Assembly (NCBI GenBank): GCA_022449455.1
Contig: JAKUPL010000009.1
Span: 62,001 to 126,000 of the forward strand
Length of the DNA stretch: 64,000 nucleotides
Source: Alcanivorax sp.
Lineage (GTDB): Bacteria > Pseudomonadota > Gammaproteobacteria > Pseudomonadales > Alcanivoracaceae
Direction of reading: 5' to 3'
The position numbers were made by a program, and so were the translations under genes. How positions within the stretch are numbered: position 1 is the stretch's first letter; the number at the start of each line of letters is the position of its first letter. Below are positions 11,509 through 25,689 of this stretch, one piece after another. The notes beneath the pieces are model-generated. The model saw only the letters and a list, made by a program, of their open reading frames with translations, searched no databases and had not been told where the DNA came from.

Positions 11509-12415
11509 GGTCCGTCCCTTTTTGTTCTACACCAAAAACTGGTTTTTTTTGGCGCCCGGAAAAAGGCGCTTTCGGTGTCGATCCTTCCGTGAGACTGCCA
11601 AGTATGGCATAGGGCCATGGGGCCAGCCATAAACTTCACGAAACAACGCTTTTATCATCACGGAACAGGCTGTTAGCGGCGATGCCCCGGGCGCCATCGG
11701 GGCCGGTCGCGACGCCCAACGCTTTGAATGCGTGAGCCCGGAGCAAATCATGTTCCAAAAGGTAACACCTGTAAACAAGTAGACTTGATGCCTCCACAAG
11801 CCCCTTAAACGCTGGATTCCTTGGTTTTATTCCCTCAGAAGTATACATAAGGATGGCAGAAGTTTTTCTTTTTCCCGGTATCCGCAACGCCTGGAATTGC
11901 CAGAACCCGCTGTTTGGTGTTTACATCCGTGCTTGTCGAATCAAGGGGTAGGGAAAGAACTTCTGCGCTCTTTTTGATTCGCAGGGCCGTGGAAAAAAGG
12001 GGGACGGATCCCTGCCCGGAGATTAATGTTTACAGGCGTACCCATCACAAACTAGGATTTCGTCCAACCTGTCCGCGCGGCGAGGTCTTCATGGGCGGCA
12101 CCATGGGCGCCCCTGGCCCGGCGGCGGAGCGGATCGATTAAGGAGTCACGGCGACCAGCGTGACCAACAACAACAACCAGGAGGTTGAGAACGCATGTTG
12201 CATGCGCTCTCGAGCCCGGAGACCGGCTCCCCTTTCCAACTCAATGATTTTTCGCCGACGCCCCGTCGTTGCGGGTTCCGCTCTAGCCGTGGAGACCTTC
12301 GCGCGTGGCGCTGTGATCCTTACTCGAAAAGTAATAGCTGTGTTAAACGTTGAGCTGCGGTCTCCCGGCTGCGTTCATGAAGAAGAACAACATCAGGCAG
12401 AAAGGTTGTCTAACT
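11509..12415. other. Long intergenic region, LysR to FadL-like operon
   Basis: About 900 bp without a gene I can support. GC falls below that of the flanks, and the stretch holds homopolymer runs (T8 near 11544, G5 near 12000) and several AT-rich patches suited to promoters. Short frames here lack SD sites and family features. The promoters of the LysR gene and the FadL-like operon must lie here, and a leader RNA is possible. Confidence 0.6.
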
Positions 12416-13750
12416 ATGAAAAAATCGATAATCAAAACAATCCTGTTGCCCGCGGGAACGATGATGCTGATGAGCACGCCCGCGCTCGCCAACATGGGTA
12501 ACACGGGCAGTACCTATGGCCTTTTCCCCTCGGACATCGCCTCCGCTCAGGCGCTGTCCCTGTTCAACACCTCCACCTCCTCCACGTACTACAACCCGGC
12601 CAACCTGGCGGTGGTGCAGACCAGCGAAATCACCGGCGCGATCTTCCACGCCGAGCACGACCTGAACACCGAAAGCGCCAACCCGGCCTACGACGGCAAT
12701 ATTCTCGACAACCCTTCACAGCAAGTGATGCTGGGTCTGAAGGCGGATCTCAGCGGCCTGATGAAATCCGAGCACCCGATCTACCTGGGCTTCATCGCCG
12801 GGGTCGAGCGTTACGGCAAGGAGATGCTGGCGTTCAGTTCCTCCGCCCAGGGCGACAACGCCCAGTATCTGCAGTATGACCGCCAGCCCCTGTTTCTGGC
12901 CGCCAGTATCGGCACCAACGTCTGGCGCGGCATCAAGTTCGGCGGCGGCGTGCAGCTGACGCTTCACAACGACGCTGAGCTGTACATCACCAACAACCTG
13001 GCGGGTACCACCACCTACGAGCAGGTGAGCGTGGAAGCCCGGCCGCAGTTCCGGCCCATCGTCGGCTTTACCATGAACCTGGGCGAGACCTTCTGCCGGG
13101 TGAAAGGCTGCTGGCAGGACAATGTGCGCGCCGCTCTGAGCTACCGCGCCCAGTCCGACAGCCGCACCTCGGTATCGTCCAACGCCATCATCCCCGGGAC
13201 CGTGACCGCGCCGGGTATCCCCATCGAAGTGAACAACGTTATCGATTCCTTCCAGCCGGCCATCACCACCGCGGGCATCCAATACGACTTCGGCGCCTGG
13301 CGCCTGGGCTTCACCGCTGAGTACCAGGAGTGGTCCCGCCTGACCACCGAACTGCGCGACGACACCATCAAGGACCAGGGCAACCTGCAATTCGAAGACG
13401 TGTTCATTCCGCGCCTGGGTCTGGAAGTGGACCTCAACGACACCTTCATGGTGACCTCCGGCGTGGCCTGGGAAAAATCGCCTCTGGACAGTGATTCCTC
13501 ACCGGACGTGAACTACGTGGACGCGGACCGCCTGGTGGTGGGCCTCGGCCTCACCGGTAATTTCAAGCATGTGCCCCTGATCGCGCACCCGGTCACCCTG
13601 AGCGTGGGCTATCAGTTCCAGCAGCTCGACGAGCGTGACTTCCGGCTCAGCCGCACCCAGCGCCTGCAGCAACCGAACCAAACCTATGGATCGGTCACCA
13701 CTGACGGCGAAGTGCACGTCTTCGCGGGTTCGGTCTCGGTGCGCTTCTAA
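12416..13750 (+). CDS. FadL-like outer membrane transport protein (copy 1)
   Basis: Predicted outer-membrane beta-barrel of the OMPP1/FadL/TodX family, 444 aa, for uptake of hydrophobic compounds. The signal peptide MKKSIIKTILLPAGTMMLMS ends at ALA before NMGN. The mature N-terminus has TYGLFPSDIASAQALSLF then YYNPANLA, matching the FadL NPA motif, and the chain ends in alternating residues and a terminal Phe (SVSVRF). A short loop with paired cysteines (CRVKGCW) is shared with the next gene. Start at 12416 has AAAGG upstream; longer in-frame starts (12377, 12350) spoil the signal peptide. A hydrocarbon or fatty-acid substrate is inferred. Confidence 0.85.
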   Translation: MKKSIIKTILLPAGTMMLMSTPALANMGNTGSTYGLFPSDIASAQALSLFNTSTSSTYYNPANLAVVQTSEITGAIFHAEHDLNTESANPAYDGNILDNPSQQVMLGLKADLSGLMKSEHPIYLGFIAGVERYGKEMLAFSSSAQGDNAQYLQYDRQPLFLAASIGTNVWRGIKFGGGVQLTLHNDAELYITNNLAGTTTYEQVSVEARPQFRPIVGFTMNLGETFCRVKGCWQDNVRAALSYRAQSDSRTSVSSNAIIPGTVTAPGIPIEVNNVIDSFQPAITTAGIQYDFGAWRLGFTAEYQEWSRLTTELRDDTIKDQGNLQFEDVFIPRLGLEVDLNDTFMVTSGVAWEKSPLDSDSSPDVNYVDADRLVVGLGLTGNFKHVPLIAHPVTLSVGYQFQQLDERDFRLSRTQRLQQPNQTYGSVTTDGEVHVFAGSVSVRF

Positions 13751-13839
13751 CCGGCTAAAGGAATACGGTGGGTACAACCATGCGAAATAAAAAAACTCAG
13801 TATGAGAATAAGCAAAAAAAGATAACGAGGTCCGCTTCT

Positions 13840-15159
13840 ATGAGCCGCAATTCGATACCAACGAATCTACTGTCCGCCAGCGTACTGCTCGCGCTGAGTT
13901 CCGCCGCCGCGGCCGGTATGAGCAACGCGCCGTCGACCTATGGCATGTTCCCTTCGGATGTGGCATCGGCCCAGGCCTTCTCCATCTTCAGCTCCAAGGC
14001 CAACGCGGTGTACTACAACCCGGCGGCCCTGGCCCAGGACGGCCGCGGTGAACTGACCGGCGCCATCCTGCACGGCGAGGCGGATCTGGGTTACAAGGAC
14101 GCCACCGGCGCCGGCCCCAGCAGCCGCCGCCTCAGCGACGAGCCCTCCCAGCAACTGATCCTCGGCCTCAAGGCCGACGCCAGCGATCTGCTGACCACCG
14201 GCCACCCGATCTATCTGGCGCTGATGCTGGGCAGTGAAAAATACGGCCGCGAAATGCTGGCGTTCGAGTCCCAAACCACCCGGGACGGCCAGTACCTGAC
14301 CTACGGTCGCAACCCGCTGTTCCTGAACGTGGGCGCGGCCACGCCGATCTGGCGCGGTATCGACTTCGGCGCGTCCATCAATATCACGCTGAACAACAAG
14401 GCCGACCTGGACACCCAGCTGGAAACCAGCGGTGAAACCCGTTACGAAACCCTGGAAGCGTCCGCCAAGCCGACCTACCGGCCGATCGTGGGCTTCAACA
14501 TGAACTGGGGCGAAACCTTCTGCCCGGATGGCTGCTGGATGGACAACCTGCAGACCGCCGTGGCGTTCCGCGGCTACTCCAAAACCGAAACGTCCATCGA
14601 TGCCACGCCCAACGTGCCGCAGCTGATCAACACCCTGCCGATCCGCGTTTCCGACGTGATTCAGGGCTACCAGCCGGACATCTACAGCGTGGGCATTCGT
14701 TATGACTTCGGTCGCGTGCGCCTTGGTTTCACCGGTGAAGCGCAGATGTGGTCCGACCTGGAAGAAGAGTTCGCCGGCGACACGGTCAAGGATCAGGCCA
14801 ACCTGCAGTTCAAGGACACCTTCGTACCCCGCGTGGGCCTGGAGTTCGACTTCAACCGCAGCTTCATGTTCACCACCGGCGTGGCCTGGGAAGAATCCCC
14901 GCTGGAAAGCAACTCTTCGCAGGACGTGAACTACCTGGACGCGGACAAACTGGTGATCGGCATGGGGCTCTCAGCCACCTTCCAGAATCCGCCGCTGCTG
15001 GCCTGGCCGCTCACCGTGGATCTGGCTTACCAATATCAGCAACTGGATGACCGCCGCTTCGACATCAACACCACCCAGGCCGGCGATCCGATCCCGGACT
15101 CCGTGGTCACCGATGGCGAAGTCAACGTTTTCTCTGGATCCGTCACCCTGAAATTCTAG
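13840..15159 (+). CDS. FadL-like outer membrane transport protein (copy 2)
   Basis: Second OMPP1/FadL-type porin, 439 aa, a tandem paralogue of the preceding gene: shared blocks include STYGMFPSDVASAQAFSIF, YYNPAALA, MNWGETFC, VGIRYDFG and VTDGEVNVFSGSVTLKF. I choose ATG 13840 (MSRNSIPTNLL), which gives a normal signal peptide ending SSAAAA and has GAGG upstream; upstream in-frame starts add a charged, Lys-rich extension. The CxxxC-like loop CPDGCW is kept. The 89-bp gap and common strand point to one operon with the upstream porin and the downstream Ig-like lipoprotein. Two diverged copies may differ in substrate. Confidence 0.85.
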   Translation: MSRNSIPTNLLSASVLLALSSAAAAGMSNAPSTYGMFPSDVASAQAFSIFSSKANAVYYNPAALAQDGRGELTGAILHGEADLGYKDATGAGPSSRRLSDEPSQQLILGLKADASDLLTTGHPIYLALMLGSEKYGREMLAFESQTTRDGQYLTYGRNPLFLNVGAATPIWRGIDFGASINITLNNKADLDTQLETSGETRYETLEASAKPTYRPIVGFNMNWGETFCPDGCWMDNLQTAVAFRGYSKTETSIDATPNVPQLINTLPIRVSDVIQGYQPDIYSVGIRYDFGRVRLGFTGEAQMWSDLEEEFAGDTVKDQANLQFKDTFVPRVGLEFDFNRSFMFTTGVAWEESPLESNSSQDVNYLDADKLVIGMGLSATFQNPPLLAWPLTVDLAYQYQQLDDRRFDINTTQAGDPIPDSVVTDGEVNVFSGSVTLKF

Positions 15160-15205
15160 GACTGAATTTCTCAAAGAATATCACTCGAAATCCGAAGAGG
15201 GCATT

Positions 15206-18200
15206 ATGACAATACGAATCCTCAACCGCACCGTGGCGGCCCTGTCCGCCGCGGTCATTCTTTCCGCGTGCGGCGGCGGCGGGGACTCGGCCGAGGGCCG
15301 TGCCTCTGACCCGTCCGCGCAATCCCAGGGCCTGGTCTACGCCTTCCCGGGTGATGGCCAAACCGAAGTCTCCACGGCCTCGCCGGTGATTCTGCGCTTC
15401 ACCTCCAGCGTCAACGTGGGCGACGCCATGAACGGCATTACCCTCTATGAGGGCGGCGCCGACGGCCGAGCCATGAGCCCGGAATTCGAACCGGTCCAGG
15501 GCCAGCCCAATAACCTGATGCTGGTACCGGAGGAAGACGACCCCTTCAAACCCAATCAGCAATACACCCTGGTGATCGAGGACCTGCCGCTGGGCGGTAA
15601 CGGCACGGCCGAGAACCGCACTCTGCAGTTCACCACCCGGGCGCTGCACGAAGGACCGAAGGAACTGGTGGTCACCGATATGGATGACTTCCGTATCACC
15701 GGCGCCTTCCCCAACTTCGACAACGACAACCTGGGCGGCGAACAGCGCTTCCAGGCCATGGACTTCTCCAGCTTCCGCTTCCAGATGTCCCAGCCGGTGG
15801 ACCGCGCCACCGCCGTTTACGGCGAGAGCGTGACCCTGACCTACGGCCCGGACGACACCGAGGTGCCCGCCACGCTGTTGGTGGACGGCCGCTACCTGAC
15901 CGTGGACCCGGAACCGGAATACCTGGATCCCAGCCAGACCTATGAGCTGACGCTCACCGGCGACCTGGCCAGCACCTACGGCGCCAACTTCGCGGAGCGC
16001 AGCCTGCGCTTCAAGCCCCAGGACACCTCGCCGCGCGGCGAGCCGACTCGCCTGGTGCAGCGCCTGACCGTGAACGAGCCCTCCAAGCTCACCGGCCGCG
16101 ACGTGAACACCGTACCGGTGAATGGCACGCTCCTCGGCGAAGACGAGAACGTCACCCAGGCCCGCGCCGACTCCGTGATCGCGGAGCTGGGCGATGCCAC
16201 CGTCTTCTCCCGCACCACCCCGATTCGTCTGCCCAAGGGCACCGTCCTGAAAGGCGACGCCATCAACCCGATCCTGATCGGCGGCAAGGTACCCGCCGGC
16301 TTCGGCTCCGGCGAGGTCACCATGACCCTGCTGTCCGACGCCACCGGCTACCTGGTGCAAAACCGCTACATGGAAGACGGCGAAAACGTCTCCCGCATGA
16401 TCCAGCTGATGATGGACGTGGGCATCGCCACCGCGGAACCCCGCGCCAACGGCGCCTTCACCCAGGATCTGCTGCACATCGAGCTGGTCGGCCTGGCCGA
16501 CATCGACACTTCCGCCGGCGTGCTGAACGTGGACGCCGTCAGCGTGGTCGAGCCCGACATTCTGGGCCAGGAATACGGCTATGGCCTGCTGAGCTTCCAG
16601 CTGCAGTCCTATGAAGATCAGACCAATGCGCCGCAGCCGATGGCGGATACCACCGCGCCGACCCTGCAAAGCTGGATGCCTCAAAATCGAGAGCCTTGGG
16701 GCAAGGCTGTTTATCAGAAGCCCGGCGATCCAATTGTGCTGACGTTTGACGAACAGTTGGAAAAGGTCGCAACGGAAGGTCTCGTTAAGCTGTACAAGAA
16801 CGGTAACGAGGTACCAGTTGAGGTCACTATTGATGGCGCATCGGTAGTTGTATCTCCGCAAACGCCGATTTCTTACAGTGCGGAAAGCAGCCCCGATACT
16901 TATACGGTCGAAGTAAGTGATGGCATCATTGATTTCGCGGGGAATGCGTTCTCAGGTTTTCAGTACGATTTCCAGATGCCAACCCTTGTCGAGCAGGTCA
17001 TCGCTGGTATCAATGCCAACTTTCAACCTGAGACCATGTACGTCAGGGCGCCGATTGTCTCGGCCATCTATCCGGGCTATCCGTGCGTTACCGACGAAGG
17101 TACACGTGATCTTTCCAGCTTGATTTCGGGCCGTTGTATCGGCGGTGTCGCTGAGCCCATCGACCAGGGGATTGAAGAGGCGCAACTGCCGGCCAGTGAC
17201 CTCCTGCCCGTTATGCCTCTGCCGCAGCAAAGGCCTGTTATCGTTAACTTCTCCAAGCGGATGAACCTTGACTCTATAAGCCTCGGGAACACGTTCCTGG
17301 TGCAAGAGGTGGATGAGCAGGGTGGGGTGATTGCCGATGTCGCCGGGAACCTGCATAAAGAGCCCTCCCGAGTGACCTTTGTCGCGGATCAGGATTGGGC
17401 GGTCGGTTCATTGTACAAAGTGACTCTGAAATCGAATGGGGATTTCACAAGCAGCGCTTGTAACCCGCAACAAAGCATCTGTTCAGAAGGTGGCTTGCCG
17501 CTGCAGACTCAAATACTGGGTGTGCTTACGCGGATTAATAACTCCAATGAAGACGCTCCCGTGACTCTTAGCAGTGCAGTCGCAGCGCAAGGCGGCGGTG
17601 GCCAAGACATGGAGAACTTCTTTGTCGGCGCGGCGAAAACCACGGATGTTTTACAGAATCTGACTAATCTCCCCAATTCTGATGTGAATTCGAACTTCTT
17701 CCATGATGCTAATCGGACTGTCGAAGAGCCGCCCAACCCGATTGCGCCCTATATCGAAGAAAGAGAATACGCGGTGGAGGAGTATGGGCCCACGAACGAG
17801 CCGGATCCTCTGGCGGACCAAACACCCAGCCCCACCAATAATGTTCCGATTGACCTGAACGGCGTATTGGCTCCGCCAAATGCCGCCAAAGTACTATCCA
17901 AGAACACGGCAGGACTGGACTTTCAGGGCCAGGCAGGAGACCCGGAAACATTGGCTTTGAATAACGTGAACGTGGGATGCGGTTTCCAGAGCCACATGCC
18001 ATTCGATCCGGAAAACCCAGTTTCCTATTATGCGATCCCTCTCAATTGTCCGAAACAGAAGTTTGTCTATATCTCTGGGAACCTGAACGCTGACGTCACC
18101 AATCGCTATGACGAGCAGAGGCAAGCGCTTGCGGTCAATATCTGGCCTGGCCAGCTCGTCGCTACTAGCCTGATCGCGTACACGCGCCTGAGTGATACAC

Positions 18201-18607
18201 AAGCCTATGTACCGTCTGAGAGCGGCCCACAGATCATGCGGATGCGTTACGCTGAAGATGGGATGGGGAACAGAAACCAGCCTATCGTTGGTTGGATTAC
18301 TGAAGGCGACAACGGGCCGCAGCTCGAAGCTGAAGTGGACCTTTATGTTGATATCCCAGAGCTGCAGTACAATCTATTCGCCCTGTCAGGTGAGCAAAAT
18401 ATTCATTCATATCCAATAACGCTTAAGCTGACCGGCGGTATCGAGTTCCTGGATGACGGGAGAATGACCATTGAGCAAGTCAACATCAATGCCGTGGATA
18501 TCGATGTTCGAATCTTCTCTAGTGGTAATCTTAAGGGCGTTATGAATCTGCTGCTGCCTGAAGGCGGGACGCGGCTGAATTATATTTCCGAGCCTATCAA
18601 GCAATAA
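15206..18607 (+). CDS. Large Ig-like domain lipoprotein
   Basis: 1133-aa predicted surface or periplasmic lipoprotein. The signal ends in the lipobox LSAC followed by a Gly-rich linker (CGGGGDSAEG). Repeated Big_5/SbsA-type Ig-like modules are visible: SPVILRFTSSVNVG (about residue 50), the stretch ending RSLRFKP (about 270), DPIVLTFDEQLEKV (about 510) and RPVIVNFSKRMNLD (about 680). No enzyme motif seen. It follows the two FadL-like porins by 46 bp and ends at a strong terminator, so it is probably their partner; the AupA/AupB alkane-uptake pair of Marinobacter offers a possible parallel. From about 16,660 the gene changes to clearly lower GC and different codon use, suggesting a mosaic origin. 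Confidence 0.75.
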   Translation: MTIRILNRTVAALSAAVILSACGGGGDSAEGRASDPSAQSQGLVYAFPGDGQTEVSTASPVILRFTSSVNVGDAMNGITLYEGGADGRAMSPEFEPVQGQPNNLMLVPEEDDPFKPNQQYTLVIEDLPLGGNGTAENRTLQFTTRALHEGPKELVVTDMDDFRITGAFPNFDNDNLGGEQRFQAMDFSSFRFQMSQPVDRATAVYGESVTLTYGPDDTEVPATLLVDGRYLTVDPEPEYLDPSQTYELTLTGDLASTYGANFAERSLRFKPQDTSPRGEPTRLVQRLTVNEPSKLTGRDVNTVPVNGTLLGEDENVTQARADSVIAELGDATVFSRTTPIRLPKGTVLKGDAINPILIGGKVPAGFGSGEVTMTLLSDATGYLVQNRYMEDGENVSRMIQLMMDVGIATAEPRANGAFTQDLLHIELVGLADIDTSAGVLNVDAVSVVEPDILGQEYGYGLLSFQLQSYEDQTNAPQPMADTTAPTLQSWMPQNREPWGKAVYQKPGDPIVLTFDEQLEKVATEGLVKLYKNGNEVPVEVTIDGASVVVSPQTPISYSAESSPDTYTVEVSDGIIDFAGNAFSGFQYDFQMPTLVEQVIAGINANFQPETMYVRAPIVSAIYPGYPCVTDEGTRDLSSLISGRCIGGVAEPIDQGIEEAQLPASDLLPVMPLPQQRPVIVNFSKRMNLDSISLGNTFLVQEVDEQGGVIADVAGNLHKEPSRVTFVADQDWAVGSLYKVTLKSNGDFTSSACNPQQSICSEGGLPLQTQILGVLTRINNSNEDAPVTLSSAVAAQGGGGQDMENFFVGAAKTTDVLQNLTNLPNSDVNSNFFHDANRTVEEPPNPIAPYIEEREYAVEEYGPTNEPDPLADQTPSPTNNVPIDLNGVLAPPNAAKVLSKNTAGLDFQGQAGDPETLALNNVNVGCGFQSHMPFDPENPVSYYAIPLNCPKQKFVYISGNLNADVTNRYDEQRQALAVNIWPGQLVATSLIAYTRLSDTQAYVPSESGPQIMRMRYAEDGMGNRNQPIVGWITEGDNGPQLEAEVDLYVDIPELQYNLFALSGEQNIHSYPITLKLTGGIEFLDDGRMTIEQVNINAVDIDVRIFSSGNLKGVMNLLLPEGGTRLNYISEPIKQ

Positions 18608-18628
18608 ACTGAGATACAGTCCCTCTGG

Positions 18629-18662
18629 AGCCCGGACTGCGGATGCAGTCCGGGCTTTTTTT
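18629..18662 (+). terminator. Rho-independent terminator after the porin/lipoprotein operon
   Basis: Perfect 12-bp stem AGCCCGGACTGC / GCAGTCCGGGCT with loop GGAT, followed by a run of seven T. It lies 22 bp after the lipoprotein stop and ends the FadL-FadL-lipoprotein operon. Confidence 0.93.
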
Positions 18663-19185
18663 CTGGAAATCCTTCCTCCCTGTTCGGGCACCTAATCGGA
18701 AGCGCCTGGCATTGAGATCCAACGCCACGATCCGATACTGAACCTGGCGTAAAAATTATAAGAGGAAAGGAATTCTTGTCGTCTGGGCCATCCTGATCTG
18801 CGTAGTAGGTAGGCACTCCAATGACGTTAACGCTTCTGCTAGCGACCAAGTCGCTTCCCCTCTGAAAGCCACCTTTAAAACACTATGTAAGGCTTGGTTG
18901 GCTAAGACCTGATGCGGCCATTTCAAGCGAGTCGGTTACTTCATGATTGATCTGCTCACTATCCTTTGGTGGCTGGTATTAATGTGGCTTGTTGCGATGC
19001 GGCCTGTACAATATGAAGGGGAAGAGGCAAGATAAAATCGGGATTGGGCGGCCTGGTCTGGTTCTGAGCCAAGGTCAAAACCATTATTTATTGATATATG
19101 GGTTTTTCAGGCGTAGGTGGGTGTTGAGGATTTATTGCAATTACGAGGGGCGGTGTCGATAAAATTATAATACGGGTAAATAAGC
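18663..19185. other. AT-richer spacer without supported genes
   Basis: About 520 bp with lower GC than the window average. The only small frame that stands out is 18943-19035 (30 aa, hydrophobic MIDLLTILWWLVLMW then a charged tail), which lacks a convincing SD. Otherwise I see nothing. Confidence 0.5.
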
Positions 19186-19223
19186 GTGGCGCAGATTTTT
19201 CATCGAAGTTTTCTTGCGCCACG
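19186..19223 (-). terminator. Possible terminator hairpin after the Pra-like operon
   Basis: Inverted repeat CGTGGCGCA (19186-19194) and TGCGCCACG (19215-19223), 9-bp arms with a 20-base AT-rich loop, about 40 bp beyond the stop of the minus-strand Pra-like gene. No long T run follows on the minus strand, so it may rather be an mRNA-stabilising stem. Confidence 0.4.
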
Positions 19224-19263
19224 GAAAGGGCATCCTATCAAAAAGCTGCAATTCATTTAGTAT

Positions 19264-19794
19264 CTAAGGGTATATTCTTATGTTGTTGTAAGGGGCGACA
19301 TAGAGTATTGAAGGTGGTGCAGAAGAAAAATTGCAGGCGCCTACGGAAAGCCCAGAAAAATCTATTGATGAGGCAGTGGGATTGTTAAGGAATGGAACGG
19401 TAATTGAACCTTGGCAATCTAAAATGCCGCCAAAGGGGGCTGTCATATCCATAAGGAAAGAGATGTTGGCGCCCCCGCCAGTTGTTGGGGTGATATTGTT
19501 GGGTGATCCCCAGGGGAGATTATTCAGGCTAATGAGGCCACAAGGGAATGCGCCGGACGCTGTCCCTCCCGTGATTTCCATAGTGCCCGCTCCGCCGCTG
19601 CCGGTCGAAATGTCAGCAGTAAACTCCAATAAACACGTAGCAGGGAAGCCGCCCGTAATTTCTACATTTCCGAAAAAGGTATAAGGTGATAGAGGTGTTG
19701 TGGGATCAAAAGTGATTGCATGAGCGGAATTAAGTTGAAGGATTGGCAGAAGTAATATCAAGGATCGTATAATGGGGTTTATATTAAATTTCAT
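19264..19794 (-). CDS. Secreted Pra-like protein (paralogue 2)
   Basis: 176-aa exported protein. A signal peptide (MKFNINPIIRSLILLLPILQ, ending SAHA) precedes a mature part rich in Gly, Thr, Ser and Asn with four cysteines and the block SGAFPCGLISLNNLPWGS. It is clearly paralogous to the protein at 20953-21507 (FPCGLI-LNNLPWGS, LDC-GSITVPF-N-TAS, near-identical ends). The layout, two cysteine pairs around a central LPW motif in a small beta-rich secreted protein, resembles PraA/PraB, described in Pseudomonas as activators of alkane oxidation; this assignment is from memory of the family and tentative. SD GGAG lies 10 bases upstream, and a 20-bp palindrome sits just before it. Confidence 0.65.
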   Translation of the reverse strand: MKFNINPIIRSLILLLPILQLNSAHAITFDPTTPLSPYTFFGNVEITGGFPATCLLEFTADISTGSGGAGTMEITGGTASGAFPCGLISLNNLPWGSPNNITPTTGGGANISFLMDMTAPFGGILDCQGSITVPFLNNPTASSIDFSGLSVGACNFSSAPPSILYVAPYNNIRIYP

Positions 19795-19810
19795 AGCGTT
19801 CTCCGTTGTG

Positions 19811-19830
19811 ATTTTTATAGCTATAAAAAT
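19811..19830. promoter_or_regulatory. Perfect 20-bp palindrome before Pra-like gene 2
   Basis: ATTTTTATAG followed by CTATAAAAAT, a perfect 20-bp palindrome 17 bp upstream of the minus-strand start codon at 19794, just upstream of its SD. It could be an operator or a hairpin in the mRNA leader. Confidence 0.5.
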
Positions 19831-20063
19831 TTTTCGCGAGGCGGTGCTGTTGTTGATGAATTCAAAATTCTTTGGGTCCTACAAGATAGATGGGAGGTCG
19901 GTAGATACCCTGGGGTGCCGAAAGTAATATTGATGTTATTTATCTCTGGAGAATGTTGATGGAGCTTCCCAGGGAAAGTTATTGGATTCTACCAATATAT
20001 GCGCGAATACGACGCTGAAGATGATGGCCGTCGCGATGAAATCTCTATCTCTTTCGGTGCGGT

Positions 20064-20894
20064 TTACTTTTTGTACTCCACCGTTATTGTGCTTCCGCTT
20101 TGATTTATTACTACACTCGCTGAGCCTGATTCCTGAAAAGATTTAATGGCAAGTGTGTCTGATCCGTCTTCGCCCACTGGGTATCCGTTTACTGAAAGAA
20201 TTGTATCGCCAGGTTTTAGGTTAAATTTTTCTATTATTTCTTTAGCGTCTTCAGTGATTCTATAGCCGGATGCCGAGTTTTTGGAAACGGGCTCCAATCC
20301 GTATTTTTCAAGCGCGCGCTCCCTGGCGGTTTTGGCGGCGCCGTCCTGTTCCGCTACTTCCTCTGCTTCGCTATTTTGCTGCGGAAGCTTGTTGTCATCG
20401 ATTCCACTGACCGAATTGAATTCAGATAAGCTTACCCTCTCCATAATGCCGTTATTATCGATTATTATGCTTTGCGACGTTATGTCTTTGAGAATAATGT
20501 TGGAGGAAATTTTCGATGATATTGAGAATAAAGTTGGCCCATCGTCATTTAAGGTAATGATCGCAGATGAGCGATTGCCTTTCTGGTTAAAAAAGGTACC
20601 CAGTAGACTTATTGATGCTTTTGACTCTCTAATGTTTTCATGTCTTTGCGCGTTTTCTTTTTGATAAGAGCCAAAAATATTCCAATCTTCGATGTTCTTG
20701 TGGGCGTGTATGGTTGTCAGCCGTTGCTTTTCGGGAGTTGAAACGCTGGCGCGCGATGGATCTTGTTTTGGCAAGTCGCTGGAGAAAAAGGCATAGCTGT
20801 TCCAGGCAATGCCGAGGAGGAAGATCAAGAGCACTGCTGTGGTAAGCAATCTCGCTGCTGACAACAGGGTCGGTCGTTTGAATAGCGAGGGCAT
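20064..20894 (-). CDS. gspC: Orphan type II secretion system protein GspC homologue
   Basis: 276-aa bitopic inner-membrane protein. One N-terminal helix (about 15-33) is followed by a periplasmic region with the GspC homology domain (EDWNIFG at 69-75, SISLLGTFFNQKGNRSSAII at 94-113) and a C-terminal PDZ domain (GYRITEDAKEIIEKFNLKPG at 210-229, then DTILSVNGYPV). GspC links the inner-membrane T2SS platform to the GspD secretin and influences substrate choice. No other gsp gene is in the window. Start ATG 20894 has AAGGA upstream; the longer open frame upstream only runs back through the neighbouring gene in another frame. It lies between two paralogous secreted proteins on the same strand. GC is well below the window average. 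Confidence 0.8.
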   Translation of the reverse strand: MPSLFKRPTLLSAARLLTTAVLLIFLLGIAWNSYAFFSSDLPKQDPSRASVSTPEKQRLTTIHAHKNIEDWNIFGSYQKENAQRHENIRESKASISLLGTFFNQKGNRSSAIITLNDDGPTLFSISSKISSNIILKDITSQSIIIDNNGIMERVSLSEFNSVSGIDDNKLPQQNSEAEEVAEQDGAAKTARERALEKYGLEPVSKNSASGYRITEDAKEIIEKFNLKPGDTILSVNGYPVGEDGSDTLAIKSFQESGSASVVINQSGSTITVEYKK

Positions 20895-20926
20895 GATCCT
20901 TACCTCACGCCAATAAAAGAATAGAA

Positions 20927-20945
20927 GGGGCCCCTTGGGGGCCCC
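20927..20945 (-). terminator. Intra-operon terminator/attenuator between Pra-like 1 and gspC
   Basis: On the minus strand, GGGGCCCC-CAA-GGGGCCCC is followed by TTCTATTCTTTTATT. It falls in the 58-bp gap after Pra-like gene 1 and before gspC, so it would let most transcripts stop after the abundant secreted protein and a minority continue into gspC. Confidence 0.65.
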
Positions 20946-20952
20946 AGCCAGG

Positions 20953-21507
20953 TTACGGTTGCACCTGGACGTTGTTGCTCGGGTCAGCGTACAGGACGTT
21001 CTGACCGGAAGCGTTGGCGGTAAAGGTACAGCCGCCGAAGCTCGCACCTTCCAAATCAAAGTTTGAAGCAGTGCTGTCGTTGTTGAAGGGAACGGTGATG
21101 TCGCCGTCGCAATCCAGCAGGTTGAACGGAGCGGATGCACCGATATTAGTGAGGGTAACGATTGCGCCGCTGCCATCAGTCAGTACTTCGCCGTTGTCGG
21201 TGCTGCCCCAGGGCAGATTGTCAAGGGTAATCAGGCCACAGGGGAAGCTGCCGCTAACGGACCCGCCGGTAACCGTCACCGTGCCGAACAGATCGGAGGG
21301 TGAAGAACCCTTGTCTACGTTGCCGGTCAGCGACAGGTCACAGATGTAGATGCCGAGCGGAGTATCCAGGCGCGTGGTGCCTTCGAAGGTGTAGGGGTTG
21401 TTCGGCGGATCGGGAATGATGGTTTGAGCGCTGACAGAGGCAACAGCCAGAATGGAGCAACCGGCTACGGCTGCCAGAGCACTTTTCTTGATCATTTCGA
21501 TAGACAT
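20953..21507 (-). CDS. Secreted Pra-like protein (paralogue 1)
   Basis: 184-aa exported protein. The signal peptide (MSIEMIKKSALAAVAGCSIL, ending SVSAQ) is followed by a beta-rich, Gly/Thr/Asn-rich mature part of about 155 aa with four cysteines (ICDLS, FPCGLI, LLDCDG, GGCTF) and the LPWGS motif; the end reads VLYADPSNNVQVQP. It is paralogous to the 19264-19794 product. The start at 21507 has a strong SD (GAGGAGACTCTC). Higher GC than gspC and the strong SD suggest high expression. Possible role: extracellular amphipathic factor helping hydrocarbon use, by analogy to PraA/PraB; not proven. Confidence 0.65.
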   Translation of the reverse strand: MSIEMIKKSALAAVAGCSILAVASVSAQTIIPDPPNNPYTFEGTTRLDTPLGIYICDLSLTGNVDKGSSPSDLFGTVTVTGGSVSGSFPCGLITLDNLPWGSTDNGEVLTDGSGAIVTLTNIGASAPFNLLDCDGDITVPFNNDSTASNFDLEGASFGGCTFTANASGQNVLYADPSNNVQVQP

Positions 21508-21620: not shown

Positions 21621-22208
21621 CACCTTCGACATTAGAGGAACGCTCTGCGCCAGAGAATAGAAAAATTTGAAAACTGCGTTTTCGCGATTGATTCAGTATT
21701 GAGAAAACGTAAAGATCAATATAAAACAATAACTTATGTGCCTACGTCGCGCTTAGTTTTTTTCTGGATAATTCTTTATGTTTTGAATGGGGCGGCGATT
21801 TCCGTGTTTTCAGTGCGCCTATGAGTCGACTTTTATTCCCGTTGTGCACAAATGTTTCATTTATTAGAACGATATTCTGAATTTTATGTTTCCTGTTCCC
21901 GGGCGGTGTAACCTTGGGTAACAGTTCGCCGCTTTTGGTTCCTCGGATTTATTCCCTTGGATGAGATTCATCGCGATAGTTTTATTAATCCTTTGATAAT
22001 CAGGGTTTTCTCTTGTCACTTCTGTGGCGATATGGGACCCCCTGGCGCTTGGGGGCTTCGTTTGACTATGAAGACTTGTCAGGATGATGGAATTATATTT
22101 TGAGCTGTGATCTGCTTAACAATAAAAAAGTTACAGATAAAATCCGGATGTGGCGATGCATGTAATTTTTCTGATGCCTGCGGCGCACTGAAGAGAAGGA
22201 GAGAAAAC
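21621..22208. other. AT-rich intergenic region between Pra-like and DUF192 genes
   Basis: About 590 bp between divergent genes, strongly AT-rich compared with the flanks. It must hold the promoters of the minus-strand Pra-GspC operon and the plus-strand DUF192 gene. I see no supported ORF or clear operator. Confidence 0.6.
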
Positions 22209-22745
22209 GTGGATACAGGTAAAAGATGGCTGCAGGGGGCTGTGATGGTGTGGGCCCTGGCCGTGCCGGTGGCTTATGGCGCGGGAGAGGGCGTCACTTT
22301 TGAGACGGCCGCTGTCTGTCTGGGCGATATGTCGGACCCGGTGACGGTGGAAATGGCCGAGACGGAGCAGCAGCGTAACCGGGGTTTGATGGAGCGTACG
22401 GACCTGGCGGCCGATGCCGGCATGCTGTTTCTGTTCGACCGCGAAATGAATGTGGGTTTTTATATGTTCAGAACCCGCATCCCCTTGGATATCGCTTTCT
22501 TCGATGACGATAAGAAGGTAGTGGCGATGAAGACCATGGTGCCCTGCGTCAGCCAAGATCCCCGGCGGTGCGCGATTTATAACCCGGGCGTGGCCTTTTC
22601 GTCGGCGCTGGAAGTGAATGCGGGGTTTCTAAAGCGCCACGAAATCAAAAAGGGCGACCGGTACTCGATGACCTCGGCCGCCAAATGCAGCGCAGAGCGG
22701 GGGCGCGGCCAGGCCGCTGCGCAAGAAAGCCGCGCCGGGGACTAG
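22209..22745 (+). CDS. DUF192 family exported protein (copy 1)
   Basis: 178-aa protein with a signal peptide (VDTGKRWLQGAVMVWALAVP, ending AYGAGEG) and a DUF192 domain: VTVEMAETEQQRNRGLMER, GMLFLFDREMNVGFYMFRTR, IPLDIAFFDDDKKVV and ALEVNAGFLKRHEIKKGD. DUF192 proteins are small beta-rich exported proteins of unknown function. I choose GTG 22209 because it follows AAGGAGAG and starts the signal peptide; the open frame extends upstream to 22107. Convergent with the RAYT gene. A paralogue lies at 24175-24654. Confidence 0.85.
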   Translation: MDTGKRWLQGAVMVWALAVPVAYGAGEGVTFETAAVCLGDMSDPVTVEMAETEQQRNRGLMERTDLAADAGMLFLFDREMNVGFYMFRTRIPLDIAFFDDDKKVVAMKTMVPCVSQDPRRCAIYNPGVAFSSALEVNAGFLKRHEIKKGDRYSMTSAAKCSAERGRGQAAAQESRAGD

Positions 22746-22767: not shown

Positions 22768-23472
22768 TTAGCGTTTGTCGCCGTCGCGACGTTTGCGGGG
22801 GCGGCCCGGGCCGCGGTTGAGGACCAGGATGTTGAACTTTTCGCGGACTTCCTCGACGAAGCGGTGGGAGCCGGTCAGACGGTTCCGGAACAGCGCGGTG
22901 CGGATCAGCTCCATCTCGTTTTCGTCCAGGCCGTCGCGCATGTAGGTTTTGAATGCCGCGGCCCGTTCCTCCACGCAGTCGCCCAGGCGGGCGTACTCGT
23001 CCGCGTCGTCGAGCCAGTAGGGCGTATTCTTACCCAGGCGCATGCGGTAGCTGCTGTGCGGGTAGTGGTAGGCGGAGGCGGCCAGGCCTTCCAGGGCGGG
23101 CAGACGCTCCACGTAGCACATGCTGGCGAGCAGCCATTGGCCGGGTTCCACCGGGCTGGCCCGGTAGCGGGCTTCCCAGACCGAGCGCTGCTGGTAGAGC
23201 GACCGCCGGCGCAGGGAGATCCGGCAGGATACGGCCTTCATGAAGGTCGAGAGGTCGTCCGGATGTTGGCTGGCGGTGGCCACCAGGTGCAGCCGGTCCG
23301 GGAGCAGAGTCCAGGCGTGCAGCTGCACGTTGTAGCGCTTTTTGAGGATCTGGATCTGGTTCAGGCAGTGGCGATAGTCGGACTCATTGTTGAACACCGG
23401 TTCGCCTTTCCGGGTCTTGCGCATGATGTGGTGCGGATAGTCCTTGAGCACTAAGCGGTCCGTGCCGGTCAT
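22768..23472 (-). CDS. RAYT-type (Y1/IS200-like) transposase homologue with altered HUH motif
   Basis: 234-aa member of the REP-associated tyrosine transposase family. Architecture matches: PHHIMRKTRKGEPVFNNESD at 13-32, HAWTLLPDRLHLVAT at 52-66, the stretch SVWEARYRASPVE, Y120 in CYVERLP (family form YIELNP), YPHSSYRMRLG, and the C-terminal GRPRK tail. The metal-binding HUH motif, normally NHVHL, reads DRLHL here: the first His is Arg60, and NP after the Tyr is LP. Catalysis is therefore doubtful. SD AAGGAG precedes the start. REP-like palindromes elsewhere in the window are its natural substrates if active. Flanked by two DUF192 genes. Confidence 0.8.
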   Translation of the reverse strand: MTGTDRLVLKDYPHHIMRKTRKGEPVFNNESDYRHCLNQIQILKKRYNVQLHAWTLLPDRLHLVATASQHPDDLSTFMKAVSCRISLRRRSLYQQRSVWEARYRASPVEPGQWLLASMCYVERLPALEGLAASAYHYPHSSYRMRLGKNTPYWLDDADEYARLGDCVEERAAAFKTYMRDGLDENEMELIRTALFRNRLTGSHRFVEEVREKFNILVLNRGPGRPRKRRDGDKR

Positions 23473-24174: not shown

Positions 24175-24654
24175 ATGTTCCCTCTGAGAATGTTCCAAAC
24201 GGGCATATTAGCGGTTGTTTTATTTACCCCGTTGGCGACCGGCGACGAGCCGTTGCCGCGCGATTTACTGTGTGTCGGTGACCCGCAAAGACCGGTGCGG
24301 GTGGAAGTGGCGTCCACCCTCGAGCAGCGTGCTCGGGGTTTGATGGAGCGTGAACATCTGGCGGCGGACGCGGGGATGTTGTTTCGCTTCGATCCGCCGG
24401 CCACGGCGGAGCAGGGGTTCTACATGTACCGCACGCGGATTCCGCTGGACATTGCCTTCCTGGACGCCGACGGCCGCATCCTCAACATCCAGACCATGAC
24501 CCCCTGCGACAGCCGCGTGGCCGTGCTGTGCCGCGTATACCGCCCCGGCCAGGGCTACCATCAGGCCCTGGAGGTCAACGCCGGCTACTTCCAGCGCCAC
24601 GGCATCCGCCCCGGCGACCGCGTCCGCCCCGCCCGGGGCGACACCTGCCGTTAG
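24175..24654 (+). CDS. DUF192 family exported protein (copy 2)
   Basis: 159-aa DUF192 protein paralogous to 22209-22745: VRVEVASTLEQRARGLMERE, GMLFRFDPPATAEQGFYMYR, TRIPLDIAFLDADGRIL, and ALEVNAGYFQRHGIRPGDRV. An N-terminal hydrophobic segment (FQTGILAVVLFTPLATG) is a likely signal peptide. ATG 24175 is used; ATG 24190 is an alternative. Two direct-repeat pairs lie upstream. The two copies bracket the RAYT homologue, suggesting duplication or insertion at this locus. Confidence 0.82.
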   Translation: MFPLRMFQTGILAVVLFTPLATGDEPLPRDLLCVGDPQRPVRVEVASTLEQRARGLMEREHLAADAGMLFRFDPPATAEQGFYMYRTRIPLDIAFLDADGRILNIQTMTPCDSRVAVLCRVYRPGQGYHQALEVNAGYFQRHGIRPGDRVRPARGDTCR

Positions 24655-24752: not shown

Positions 24753-24941
24753 ATGAACAAGCGCGAGAACGACCTGGAGCGCCGCCGTCTGGCTCTGTTG
24801 GAGGGCCTGCGGCGCGGCGAACGCGCGGTGCTGGAAGGCCGGACTTTAAGTCATGAAGAGGCCCGGGCACGTTTGATGAGCCTGGGGCGGCGGTATCAGG
24901 TGTCTGTTAGGAGAAGAGGTGATGGCACGGAACATTCTTGA
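24753..24941 (+). CDS. Small protein, possible antitoxin remnant
   Basis: 62-aa frame beginning MNKRENDLERRRLALLEGLR with SD GAGAGG upstream. The segment LEGLRRGERAVLEGRTLSHEEARARL resembles the C-terminal tail of ParD/RelB-like antitoxins, but the DNA-binding N-terminal part is absent. Followed by another antitoxin-like fragment and an intact ParDE pair. Function not assigned. Confidence 0.4.
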   Translation: MNKRENDLERRRLALLEGLRRGERAVLEGRTLSHEEARARLMSLGRRYQVSVRRRGDGTEHS

Positions 24942-25065
24942 GGCCGTTCAAGCGACTGCCCATGAGTTGTTGGAGGCTGGAGTTATGAATATCGCGACAT
25001 TTCGCACCCTGATCTCTAAGACCAACCAGCGGGACGTCGACGGCGGTGATAAGCAGGTGATGACA
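24922..25065 (+). pseudogene. Truncated HTH-type antitoxin remnant
   Basis: The frame starts MARNILEAVQATAHELLEAG then VMNIATFRTLI, which looks like the N-terminus of XRE antitoxins of HigA type (M-RNILEAV---A--L--AGVM---T-R). The HTH part is missing: the frame runs without a stop into the ParD antitoxin gene. Taken as a decayed TA gene whose 3' part was replaced by the parDE module. Recognition is from memory of the family and is moderate. Confidence 0.35.
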
Positions 25066-25068
25066 GAA

Positions 25069-25087
25069 AATAGCAATATTTGCTATT
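25069..25087. promoter_or_regulatory. Palindromic operator candidate upstream of parDE
   Basis: AATAGCAA-TAT-TTGCTATT, perfect 8-bp arms with a 3-base centre, 38 bp before the parD start. Its AT-rich TTGCTATTCT also resembles promoter elements. Type II antitoxins typically repress their own operon through such sites. Confidence 0.6.
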
Positions 25088-25125
25088 CTTCGAAGAAATC
25101 TGCCGTTGTCCGAGGTGCGTTACCC

Positions 25126-25389
25126 ATGAATGTTTCTCTCACTTCTGAGCTTGAAAACTATGTGAAACTGAAAGTGGCGACGGGCATGTATACGTCGGCG
25201 AGCGAGGTCATGCGGGAAGCGCTCCGATTGATGGAAGAGCGGGATGCCCTCCAGTCCATGAAGCTGGAGTCATTGCGTGGCGAAATAGCGCGAGGTGACT
25301 TGTCCATAGAAGAGGGGAAGGCCAAGCCACTGGACTTCGAGGCGGTGAAAGCCGCCGCGCGCGCGCGCCACCAGAAACGGGCAAAGTGA
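25126..25389 (+). CDS. parD: Type II antitoxin, ParD family
   Basis: 87-aa antitoxin. An N-terminal ribbon-helix-helix domain reads MNVSLTSELENYVKLKVATG then MYTSASEVMREALRLMEER, the ParD/CopG pattern, followed by a flexible tail (LRGEIARGDLSIEEGKAK) that would wrap the toxin. Start ATG 25126 has GAGG upstream, although the frame is open further upstream through an antitoxin remnant. parE begins 9 bp downstream. Autorepression via the palindrome at 25069-25087 is likely. Confidence 0.9.
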   Translation: MNVSLTSELENYVKLKVATGMYTSASEVMREALRLMEERDALQSMKLESLRGEIARGDLSIEEGKAKPLDFEAVKAAARARHQKRAK

Positions 25390-25398
25390 GGGCCATTC

Positions 25399-25689
25399 AT
25401 GCGGCTGTTTCTCGAAACTTCGCCCGAAGCGGAGTCCGATCTGAGCGAGATATGGCTGTACATCGCCGATGACCAGCCGGTCAATGCCGACCGCTTTATT
25501 GAGCGGCTGAAGCAGAAGACACTGAGGCTCTCGGAATTCCCAGATTTGGGTCGAGATCGGCCAGATATTTCAGCGGGTTTGAAGAGCTTTCCCGTGGATC
25601 GTTATAACATTTATTACCGGGTCAATGATTCAGCACTGATTTTGGTCAGAGTGCTCCCGGCTTCCCGTGACATTGGTAGTTTGTTCTAA
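25399..25689 (+). CDS. parE: Type II toxin, ParE/RelE family
   Basis: 96-aa toxin of the ParE/RelE fold: LFLETSPEAESDLSEIWLYI, RFIERLKQKTLRLSEFPDLG, RPDISAGLKSFPVDRYNIYY and a C-terminal VRVLPASRDIGSLF. The features of ParE toxins are kept (conserved RPD, YxIYYR). ParE members poison DNA gyrase in characterised systems; RelE relatives cut mRNA, and sequence alone favours ParE. Partner of the upstream parD. Confidence 0.9.
   Translation: MRLFLETSPEAESDLSEIWLYIADDQPVNADRFIERLKQKTLRLSEFPDLGRDRPDISAGLKSFPVDRYNIYYRVNDSALILVRVLPASRDIGSLF

Follow-up and report, generated by a model that had tools for sequence, protein, structure and literature searches.

We analyzed a stretch of 64,000 nucleotides (hereafter the window) of the 4.2 Mb genome of Alcanivorax sp. 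(GenBank assembly GCA_022449455.1, contig JAKUPL010000009.1, positions 62001-126000; contig C70 in our numbering), and in particular a gene trio in which a GspC homologue of the type II secretion system (T2SS), termed orphan as it does not lie beside gspD, is enclosed between the genes of two small Pra-like proteins. According to the original prediction, this spare GspC might represent an adaptor dedicated to the secretion of its neighbors. The three genes are indeed present where they had been placed, as open frames and all on the minus strand:

20953..21507, minus strand: Pra-like protein 1, the proposed T2SS cargo; open frame of 184 amino acids (aa), with an N-terminal Sec-type signal peptide (by inspection) and four cysteines after residue 25
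20927..20945, minus strand: terminator-like hairpin (intrinsic type) in the gap between Pra-like 1 and gspC; eight G-C pairs, then a U-rich tail
20064..20894, minus strand: orphan GspC; open frame of 276 aa, with a transmembrane helix (TM, 10-38), a homology region (HR, 95-156) and a PDZ domain (190-274)
19264..19794, minus strand: Pra-like protein 2; open frame of 176 aa, with a signal peptide (by inspection) and four cysteines

The assignment of the central gene to GspC, with its homology region and PDZ domain, was borne out by both profile and structure comparisons. The Pfam family T2SSC (PF11356) matched it with an E value of 1.9e-17 (63.8 bits versus a cut-off of 27), and in the AlphaFold (AF2) model the TM helix, the HR strands and the PDZ domain occupy the residues listed above, both domains being mostly of high pLDDT. 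A Foldseek search with the HR and the PDZ domain gave no match at E <= 0.001; above this limit, the HR matched that of the GspC of enterotoxigenic Escherichia coli (ETEC; 3oss_C, E 2.5e-3, probability 1.00, TMt 0.89, rmsd 1.6) and the PDZ domain that of EpsC (2i6v, E 7e-3, probability 1.00, TMt 0.65). The PDZ domain was not matched in the Pfam scan of the window protein, and a profile built from 26 GspC rows matched 2i4s (3.5e-5). Hence, an HR with an N-terminal TM helix and a C-terminal PDZ domain are all found, and the gene is not adjacent to gspD, the sole gspD over the cut-off lying on contig C8. With 41.7 bits versus a cut-off of 101.6 for the NCBIfam equivalog TIGR01713, the window protein is, judging from its score, a divergent relative of this family and not an equivalog.

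The canonical gspC of the same genome lies on contig C8, beside gspD, differently from the orphan one, with which it shares the domain order (TM, HR, PDZ) and 33% identity; gspE and gspL are on contig C3. The statement that no other T2SS gene occurs in the window stood for GspD and GspE (none over the cut-off) and for GspL, while GspF-K and GspM were not searched. In a sample of 46 genomes of the family, including 13 of the same genus (g1) and seven of genus g4, GspD over the cut-off is single in 44 (it is split in G036 and was missed in G041, which is 64% complete) and GspL is single in 45, with no match in the remaining one. Therefore, the extra GspC has one machine only to work with, and the existence of a second complete T2SS was rejected.

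In the GspC phylogenetic tree, a single branch (99/93) separates the 28 canonical rows from the others. Of the 24 orphan sequences of the family, 21 were entered (without the split gene of G004, the remnant of G007 and one copy of G035), and these form two well-supported groups (12 rows, 99/100; five rows, 99/95) and a third, weakly supported one (81/67) harboring the window sequence; the tree has long branches, and its deep order is uncertain. The ratio of nonsynonymous to synonymous substitutions (dN/dS) of orphan gspC is 0.13-0.22 in seven of eight pairs (the eighth is saturated, and two others have dS above 1.4), compared with 0.08-0.17 in four pairs of canonical genes. Thus, the orphan gspC pairs open to this analysis are under purifying selection, and the idea of a degenerate duplicate was rejected on account of the kept domains and of these ratios, although the window gene itself is not among the assessable ones.

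The two flanking proteins are paralogous, as had been proposed (41-42% identity), and the label Pra-like suits them, which 'Pra' would not. Indeed, with the NCBIfam models PraA and PraB (cut-offs 150 and 120 bits) Pra-like 1 scored 33.4 and 31.8 bits (best E 2.8e-8, PraA) and Pra-like 2 scored 23.6 and 22.2 bits (best E 3e-5), so that neither reaches the equivalog level. They share with PraA and PraB of Pseudomonas, the alkane oxidation activator proteins, a distant sequence similarity, the small size, the signal peptide and the alkane context, but they differ from them in lying far below the equivalog cut-offs, in being duplicated and in their linkage to GspC and aupB. The AF2 model of Pra-like 1 is beta-rich (pLDDT 79, pTM 0.71). 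Searches with this protein matched a contig of Alloalcanivorax mobilis MT13131 (NZ_NMQZ01000068.1), and its relative in genome G006 (A. mobilis) is 64% identical to it. A terminator-like hairpin between Pra-like 1 and gspC, as predicted, was also found (20945-20927), and the trio of G006 (locus L031) has an equivalent hairpin at the same place, longer and stronger, with a U run (z -2.98 versus shuffled sequences); the 61-nt stretch of the window, taken overall, has a stability not unusual for its composition (z -0.88). It is plausible that such a terminator might set a cargo-rich expression ratio.

The analysis of the 46 genomes revealed a strong association between orphan gspC and Pra-like genes. 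A second or further GspC was detected with PF11356 in 12 of the 13 g1 genomes (the exception being G008), in all seven g4 genomes and in none of the 26 remaining ones; this profile is imperfectly sensitive, and two further orphans (G034 and G035) came from BLAST, for a total of 24 orphan genes. All 19 genomes with an extra GspC, which belong to two genera only, also possess Pra-like matches. A Pra-like gene lies within 5 kb of 21 of the 24 orphan genes, whereas the 45 canonical gspC genes have none of the 70 Pra-like matches at such a distance, the nearest being 392 kb away. Two of the three orphans devoid of a Pra-like neighbor (G001 and G004) are at contig ends, leaving that of G031 as the only genuine exception. 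Of the 24 orphans, 22 have an aupB-type gene at a distance of 10 kb or less, and 55 of the 70 Pra-like matches are within 5 kb of such a gene, 49 of them being convergent with it. Genes detected with the Pra-like profile occur in 28 of the 46 genomes and, in an order-wide draw of 390 genomes, in 13 (11 of this family and two of one other genus). The exact Pra-GspC-Pra order was found only in the window and in G006, where it is on a contig of 8,124 bases. The idea of a trio private to one strain was therefore rejected, and the trio is conserved, in its strict form, in two genomes only, the general GspC-Pra association being wider; gene orders vary across the two genera (tandem, divergent with DsbC and FKBP genes, convergent).

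In 10 of the 24 orphan loci (G003, G005, G007, G010 and G032 to G037), genes for a DsbC-like isomerase and an FKBP-type prolyl isomerase separate the Pra-like genes from gspC, which is divergent; the window locus has neither of the two. In loci L037 and L097, the DsbC_N and thioredoxin domains and the FKBP_N and FKBP_C domains are over their Pfam cut-offs, and at the other loci the isomerases were identified through BLAST matches with the L037 proteins. The NCBIfam cut-offs for DsbC and for the FKBP isomerase were not reached, the L037 FKBP protein being narrowly over that of BamJ (101.5 versus 100 bits). In the 35 of the 70 Pra-like matches for which cysteines after residue 25 were counted, the 17 proteins linked to DsbC have ten (14 proteins) or six (three proteins), and the 18 devoid of a linked DsbC have mostly four (12 proteins), one having two and five having six. 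T2SS cargo is reported to be exported in a folded state, and the combination, side by side, of a disulfide isomerase, a cysteine-rich cargo and a secretion adaptor suggests a unit for folding followed by export. A comparable case is the lipase-specific foldase Lif, which helps a T2SS lipase to fold in the periplasm and is encoded together with it. The loci of these relatives would share with the Lif system such a dedicated periplasmic helper accompanying the T2SS cargo; they differ in having a disulfide isomerase and a prolyl isomerase in this role and in co-encoding the secretion adaptor.

The trio proved to be real, and the interval 19264..21507 was refined, since it represents the middle of a larger unit which also includes an aupB-type gene and two aupA-type genes (12350-18607):

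16677..21500: exchangeable cassette, with Pra-like 1, gspC, Pra-like 2 and the aupB region 3' of about codon 490
15206..18607, plus strand: AupB-type protein of 1133 aa, with a lipobox LSAC (by inspection) and Big_5 Ig-like domains; convergent with the trio
13768..15159, plus strand: AupA-type FadL-family outer-membrane protein, copy 2; NCBIfam AupA 7.4e-142, below the equivalog cut-off; Pfam Toluene_X
12350..13750, plus strand: AupA-type FadL-family outer-membrane protein, copy 1; NCBIfam AupA 1.1e-143, below the equivalog cut-off; Pfam Toluene_X

The AupA-type proteins scored 473 and 479 bits versus an equivalog cut-off of 840, and on this basis they are homologues of AupA, not equivalogs. 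The 1133-aa protein had no match in the NCBIfam scan; it matched Pfam Big_5 (1.3e-27, best stretch 481-589), and the profile of this family of Big_5 proteins matched the gene directly 3' of aupA in two Marinobacter-like genomes whose AupA exceeds the curated cut-off (L108 and L109; E 3e-218 and 1e-213). By similarity it is therefore an AupB homologue, the name AupB being given by position. The locus thus shares with the alkane uptake system AupA/AupB of Marinobacter a homologous aupA-aupB pair, here beside the trio, and differs from it in having two aupA copies, an aupB with an exchangeable C-terminal part and convergent Pra-GspC genes. On contig C9 of the same genome (L084, 2172-6326), another AupB-type gene was observed to face a convergent Pra-like gene, with no GspC.

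The comparison with close relatives revealed that a part of this unit has been exchanged. Up to 16676 the window shares 98.7-99.0% identity with genome G004, and from 21501 onwards 94.6%, whereas blastn found no similarity between G004 and window positions 16677-21500. The left boundary falls at about residue 490 of AupB, at the Big_5 domain (481-589), and the right one seven bases inside Pra-like 1, within its signal peptide. AupB has a mosaic structure: in steps of 60 aa that of G004 is 95-100% identical to that of the window over the first 480 residues and 33-43% over the rest, and the G+C content drops from 0.66 to 0.52 within aupB at the boundary, the cassette being of lower G+C. In five more distant relatives (G005, G007, G008, G009 and contig C40 of G010), similarity stops within about 60 nt of the left point (16629-16681) and within 26 nt of the right one (21475-21501). 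In these five, a jump of divergence at a domain border could mimic an exchange; the G004 contrast, 99% versus no similarity, makes such mimicry not possible for that genome. G003 has one short and weak stretch ending at 16623, and G006 exhibits a different pattern; its AupB is 40-77% identical to that of the window in the first part and 50-82% in the rest. In near relatives, the stretch between the middle of aupB and the Pra signal peptide is exchanged in one piece.

Shared exchange boundaries and low G+C would also be expected if the locus were simply a recombination hotspot, in which gspC duplicates and Pra-like genes move together without working together. REP-associated transposase-like genes beside many such loci, and the 18 of 36 AupB-Pra loci devoid of GspC, fit this idea as well. 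However, all the assessable orphan gspC pairs are under purifying selection, the association persists in two genera in spite of their differing gene orders, and the co-linked periplasmic folding enzymes make functional sense. Hence, we regard such hitchhiking as unlikely.

A further question concerns the identity of the cargo. The similarity of the Pra-like proteins parallels that of the C-terminal half of AupB in 36 AupB-Pra loci (Mantel rho 0.48, p 0.001), at least partly because of their physical linkage inside the block, and no correlation was found with the N-terminal half (rho 0.06, p 0.23). In the 17 loci with an intact orphan GspC, the similarity of GspC is correlated with that of the Pra-like proteins (rho 0.335, p 0.0055; after removal of two near-copies, 0.377, p 0.0035) and not with that of the AupB C-terminal half (rho 0.085, p 0.20). 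In the pair G005b-G007b, for instance, the similarity is 0.72 for GspC, 0.76 for Pra and 0.35 for the AupB C-terminal half. These data favor the Pra-like proteins, rather than AupB, as the probable client of GspC, shared descent being a partial confounder.

The opposite possibility is that the orphan GspC mainly serves the AupB-type lipoprotein, assisting its transfer to the cell surface, and that the Pra-like proteins use another route. The proximity of aupB-type genes to nearly all orphans (22 of 24 within 10 kb) is in agreement with this, as is the start of the exchanged AupB block at the Big_5 domain. According to PMC12369372, PDZ domains of GspC homologues serve only a subset of the cargo: VesB, with its signal in the Ig-fold, requires that of EpsC, and that of OutC binds an Fn3 domain, so that a GspC PDZ acting on an Ig-fold or Fn3 cargo has precedents; moreover, a T2SS is reported to be able to surface-localize lipoproteins (PMC12802150). 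Nevertheless, the absence of a correlation between GspC and the AupB C-terminal half, exemplified by the pair above, speaks against AupB as the client, many AupB copies of the family have no orphan GspC nearby, and AupB of Marinobacter is reported as an inner-membrane protein (PMC5989066). We consider this explanation improbable.

Quite improbable, in our opinion, is also a variable surface layer, made or displayed by GspC and the Pra-like proteins and driven by escape from phages or predators, alkanes being incidental. The AupB C-terminal half and the Pra-like proteins do differ strongly between neighbors otherwise 99% identical, as in diversifying surface antigens, but the linkage to aupAB-type genes points to hydrocarbons, as does Pseudomonas Pra, described as alkane-induced and with emulsifying activity (PMC5410065). 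Finally, an orphan GspC acting as a decoy or negative competitor, by which other cargo would have less access to the T2SS during growth on alkanes, although its kept HR and TM would be expected to compete for the shared machine, appears very improbable, given the kept PDZ domain, the linkage to candidate cargo and, in relatives, to folding factors, and nothing specific in its favor.

Coming back to the idea of a dedicated adaptor for the Pra-like proteins, several observations weigh against it. Nine of the 28 genomes with Pra-like genes have no extra GspC at all (G008, G015, G018, G019, G020, G024, G026, G029 and G030, four of which hold weak matches only), and half of the 36 AupB-Pra loci lack it; hence, Pra-like proteins need not depend on an orphan GspC. 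The orphan of G031 is 165 kb from any Pra-like gene (in its surroundings, L100 7255-9908, an FKBP-type isomerase and a DUF192-like gene were observed, and another cargo may be nearby). The integrity of the genes is not universal either: gspC of G004 is split over two contig ends (L035 and L036), by a break in the assembly or by an insertion, one GspC copy of G007 is a short remnant (L032, 5024-5368), and Pra-like 2 of G006 is short (130 aa). As for selection, the comparison of the window gspC with that of G006 has a saturated dS and a dN of 0.73. Six cysteines are also found in the five proteins mentioned above without a linked DsbC (the group of G001, G002, G011 and G012), and the similarity of GspC also tracks that of the AupB N-terminal half (rho 0.33, p 0.002; 17 loci), so that shared descent accounts for part of the GspC-Pra signal. 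Lastly, the original prediction called for a search of Marinobacter too, and the arrangement was not seen in five Marinobacter-like regions (genus g27, L134-L138, called Marinobacter-like from its AupA equivalog match). The second GspC of these five genomes is short (214-218 aa) and belongs to a larger gsp-type operon, being by inspection divergent from GspE-, GspF- and pseudopilin-like genes; in the five stretches fetched there was no Pra-like match and GspD was not seen, the remainder of these genomes not being mapped. The order-wide Pra search likewise gave no match in the Marinobacter-like genus among the genomes drawn, the aupAB regions of which were not scanned individually.

On balance, the linkage (21 of 24 versus 0 of 45), the folding factors in 10 of the 24 loci, the GspC-Pra co-variation and the nearby aupB speak for a spare GspC acting as a dedicated adaptor for adjoining alkane-related cargo, and the existence of Pra-like proteins without an extra GspC speaks against it. 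We lean, with some reserve, towards an adaptor-cargo relation in which GspC alone would lend the single T2SS to the co-encoded cargo; in the alkane function of this cargo we place less confidence. That the block is kept, varied and swapped together in relatives suggests an adaptor dedicated to the export of alkane-handling proteins. In this scheme, the Pra-like proteins would be exported by Sec to the periplasm and would fold there, aided, in the larger versions of the locus, by the co-encoded DsbC-like and FKBP-type isomerases. The HR is the GspD-binding domain of known GspCs. Retaining TM, HR and PDZ, the orphan GspC might replace or join the canonical one in the shared T2SS and recruit the Pra-like cargo for passage through the outer membrane; once secreted, the latter might act with the adjoining AupA/AupB-type system in alkane capture or delivery, and the terminator after Pra-like 1 would keep the cargo in excess of the adaptor. 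The gene content, the linkage, the single copies of GspD and GspL, the selection on the assessable orphan pairs, the exchange of the cassette and the GspC-Pra co-variation were observed; that GspC touches Pra, that export depends on the T2SS, that alkanes are involved and that cargo exceeds adaptor are what we infer.

The original prediction also invoked a hybrid secreton like that of XphA. According to PMC6567927, XphA is the GspC half of the XphA/XqhA GspC-GspD pair (PaQa) of Pseudomonas aeruginosa. The likeness stands inasmuch as an extra GspC outside the main cluster would presumably rely on the remaining parts of the main T2SS; it fails inasmuch as XphA brings its own GspD (XqhA), and here GspC alone is extra, so that a hybrid secreton exactly like XphA/XqhA was rejected, no second GspD being over the cut-off. 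The locus further differs in that the orphan GspC is encoded with its candidate cargo, in that DsbC-like and FKBP-type genes accompany it in 10 of the 24 loci and in that it lies in an exchangeable cassette. Thus, it resembles XphA/XqhA in idea, without the GspC-GspD pairing that defines it, and is a variant and not a member of that class.

A broader proposal, which we advance as tentative and somewhat doubtful, is that of a portable cassette of T2SS specificity: an interchangeable GspC would re-address the single-copy T2SS to alkane-capture proteins that are encoded with it, are assisted by chaperones and match the C-terminal half of the neighboring AupB receptor, and homologous recombination at two fixed points (the middle of aupB and the first Pra-like signal peptide) would reassort the whole between species. 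If this were true, secretion specificity, folding help and alkane uptake would be packaged as one exchangeable block in oil-degrading bacteria. The choice of cargo by the T2SS is an unsolved problem, and about twenty linked and co-varying GspC-cargo sets sharing one machine would represent a ready-made data set for mapping recognition.

As regards the other genes surrounding the trio, a REP-associated tyrosine transposase-like gene (Y1_Tnp; window 22768-23472, minus strand) adjoins it, and BLAST relatives of this gene occur in many Pra/GspC loci elsewhere (L032, L033, L037, L039, L040, L043, L077-L079, L095, L097 and L098). In the window, the transposase is flanked by genes for two similar small proteins (22107-22745 and 24175-24654, plus strand), the first of which is a DUF192 protein and the second resembles its paralogue, with relatives at several other loci. 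Further on, 24919-25389 and 25399-25689 (plus strand) harbor, by eye, a candidate ParD/ParE-type antitoxin/toxin pair.

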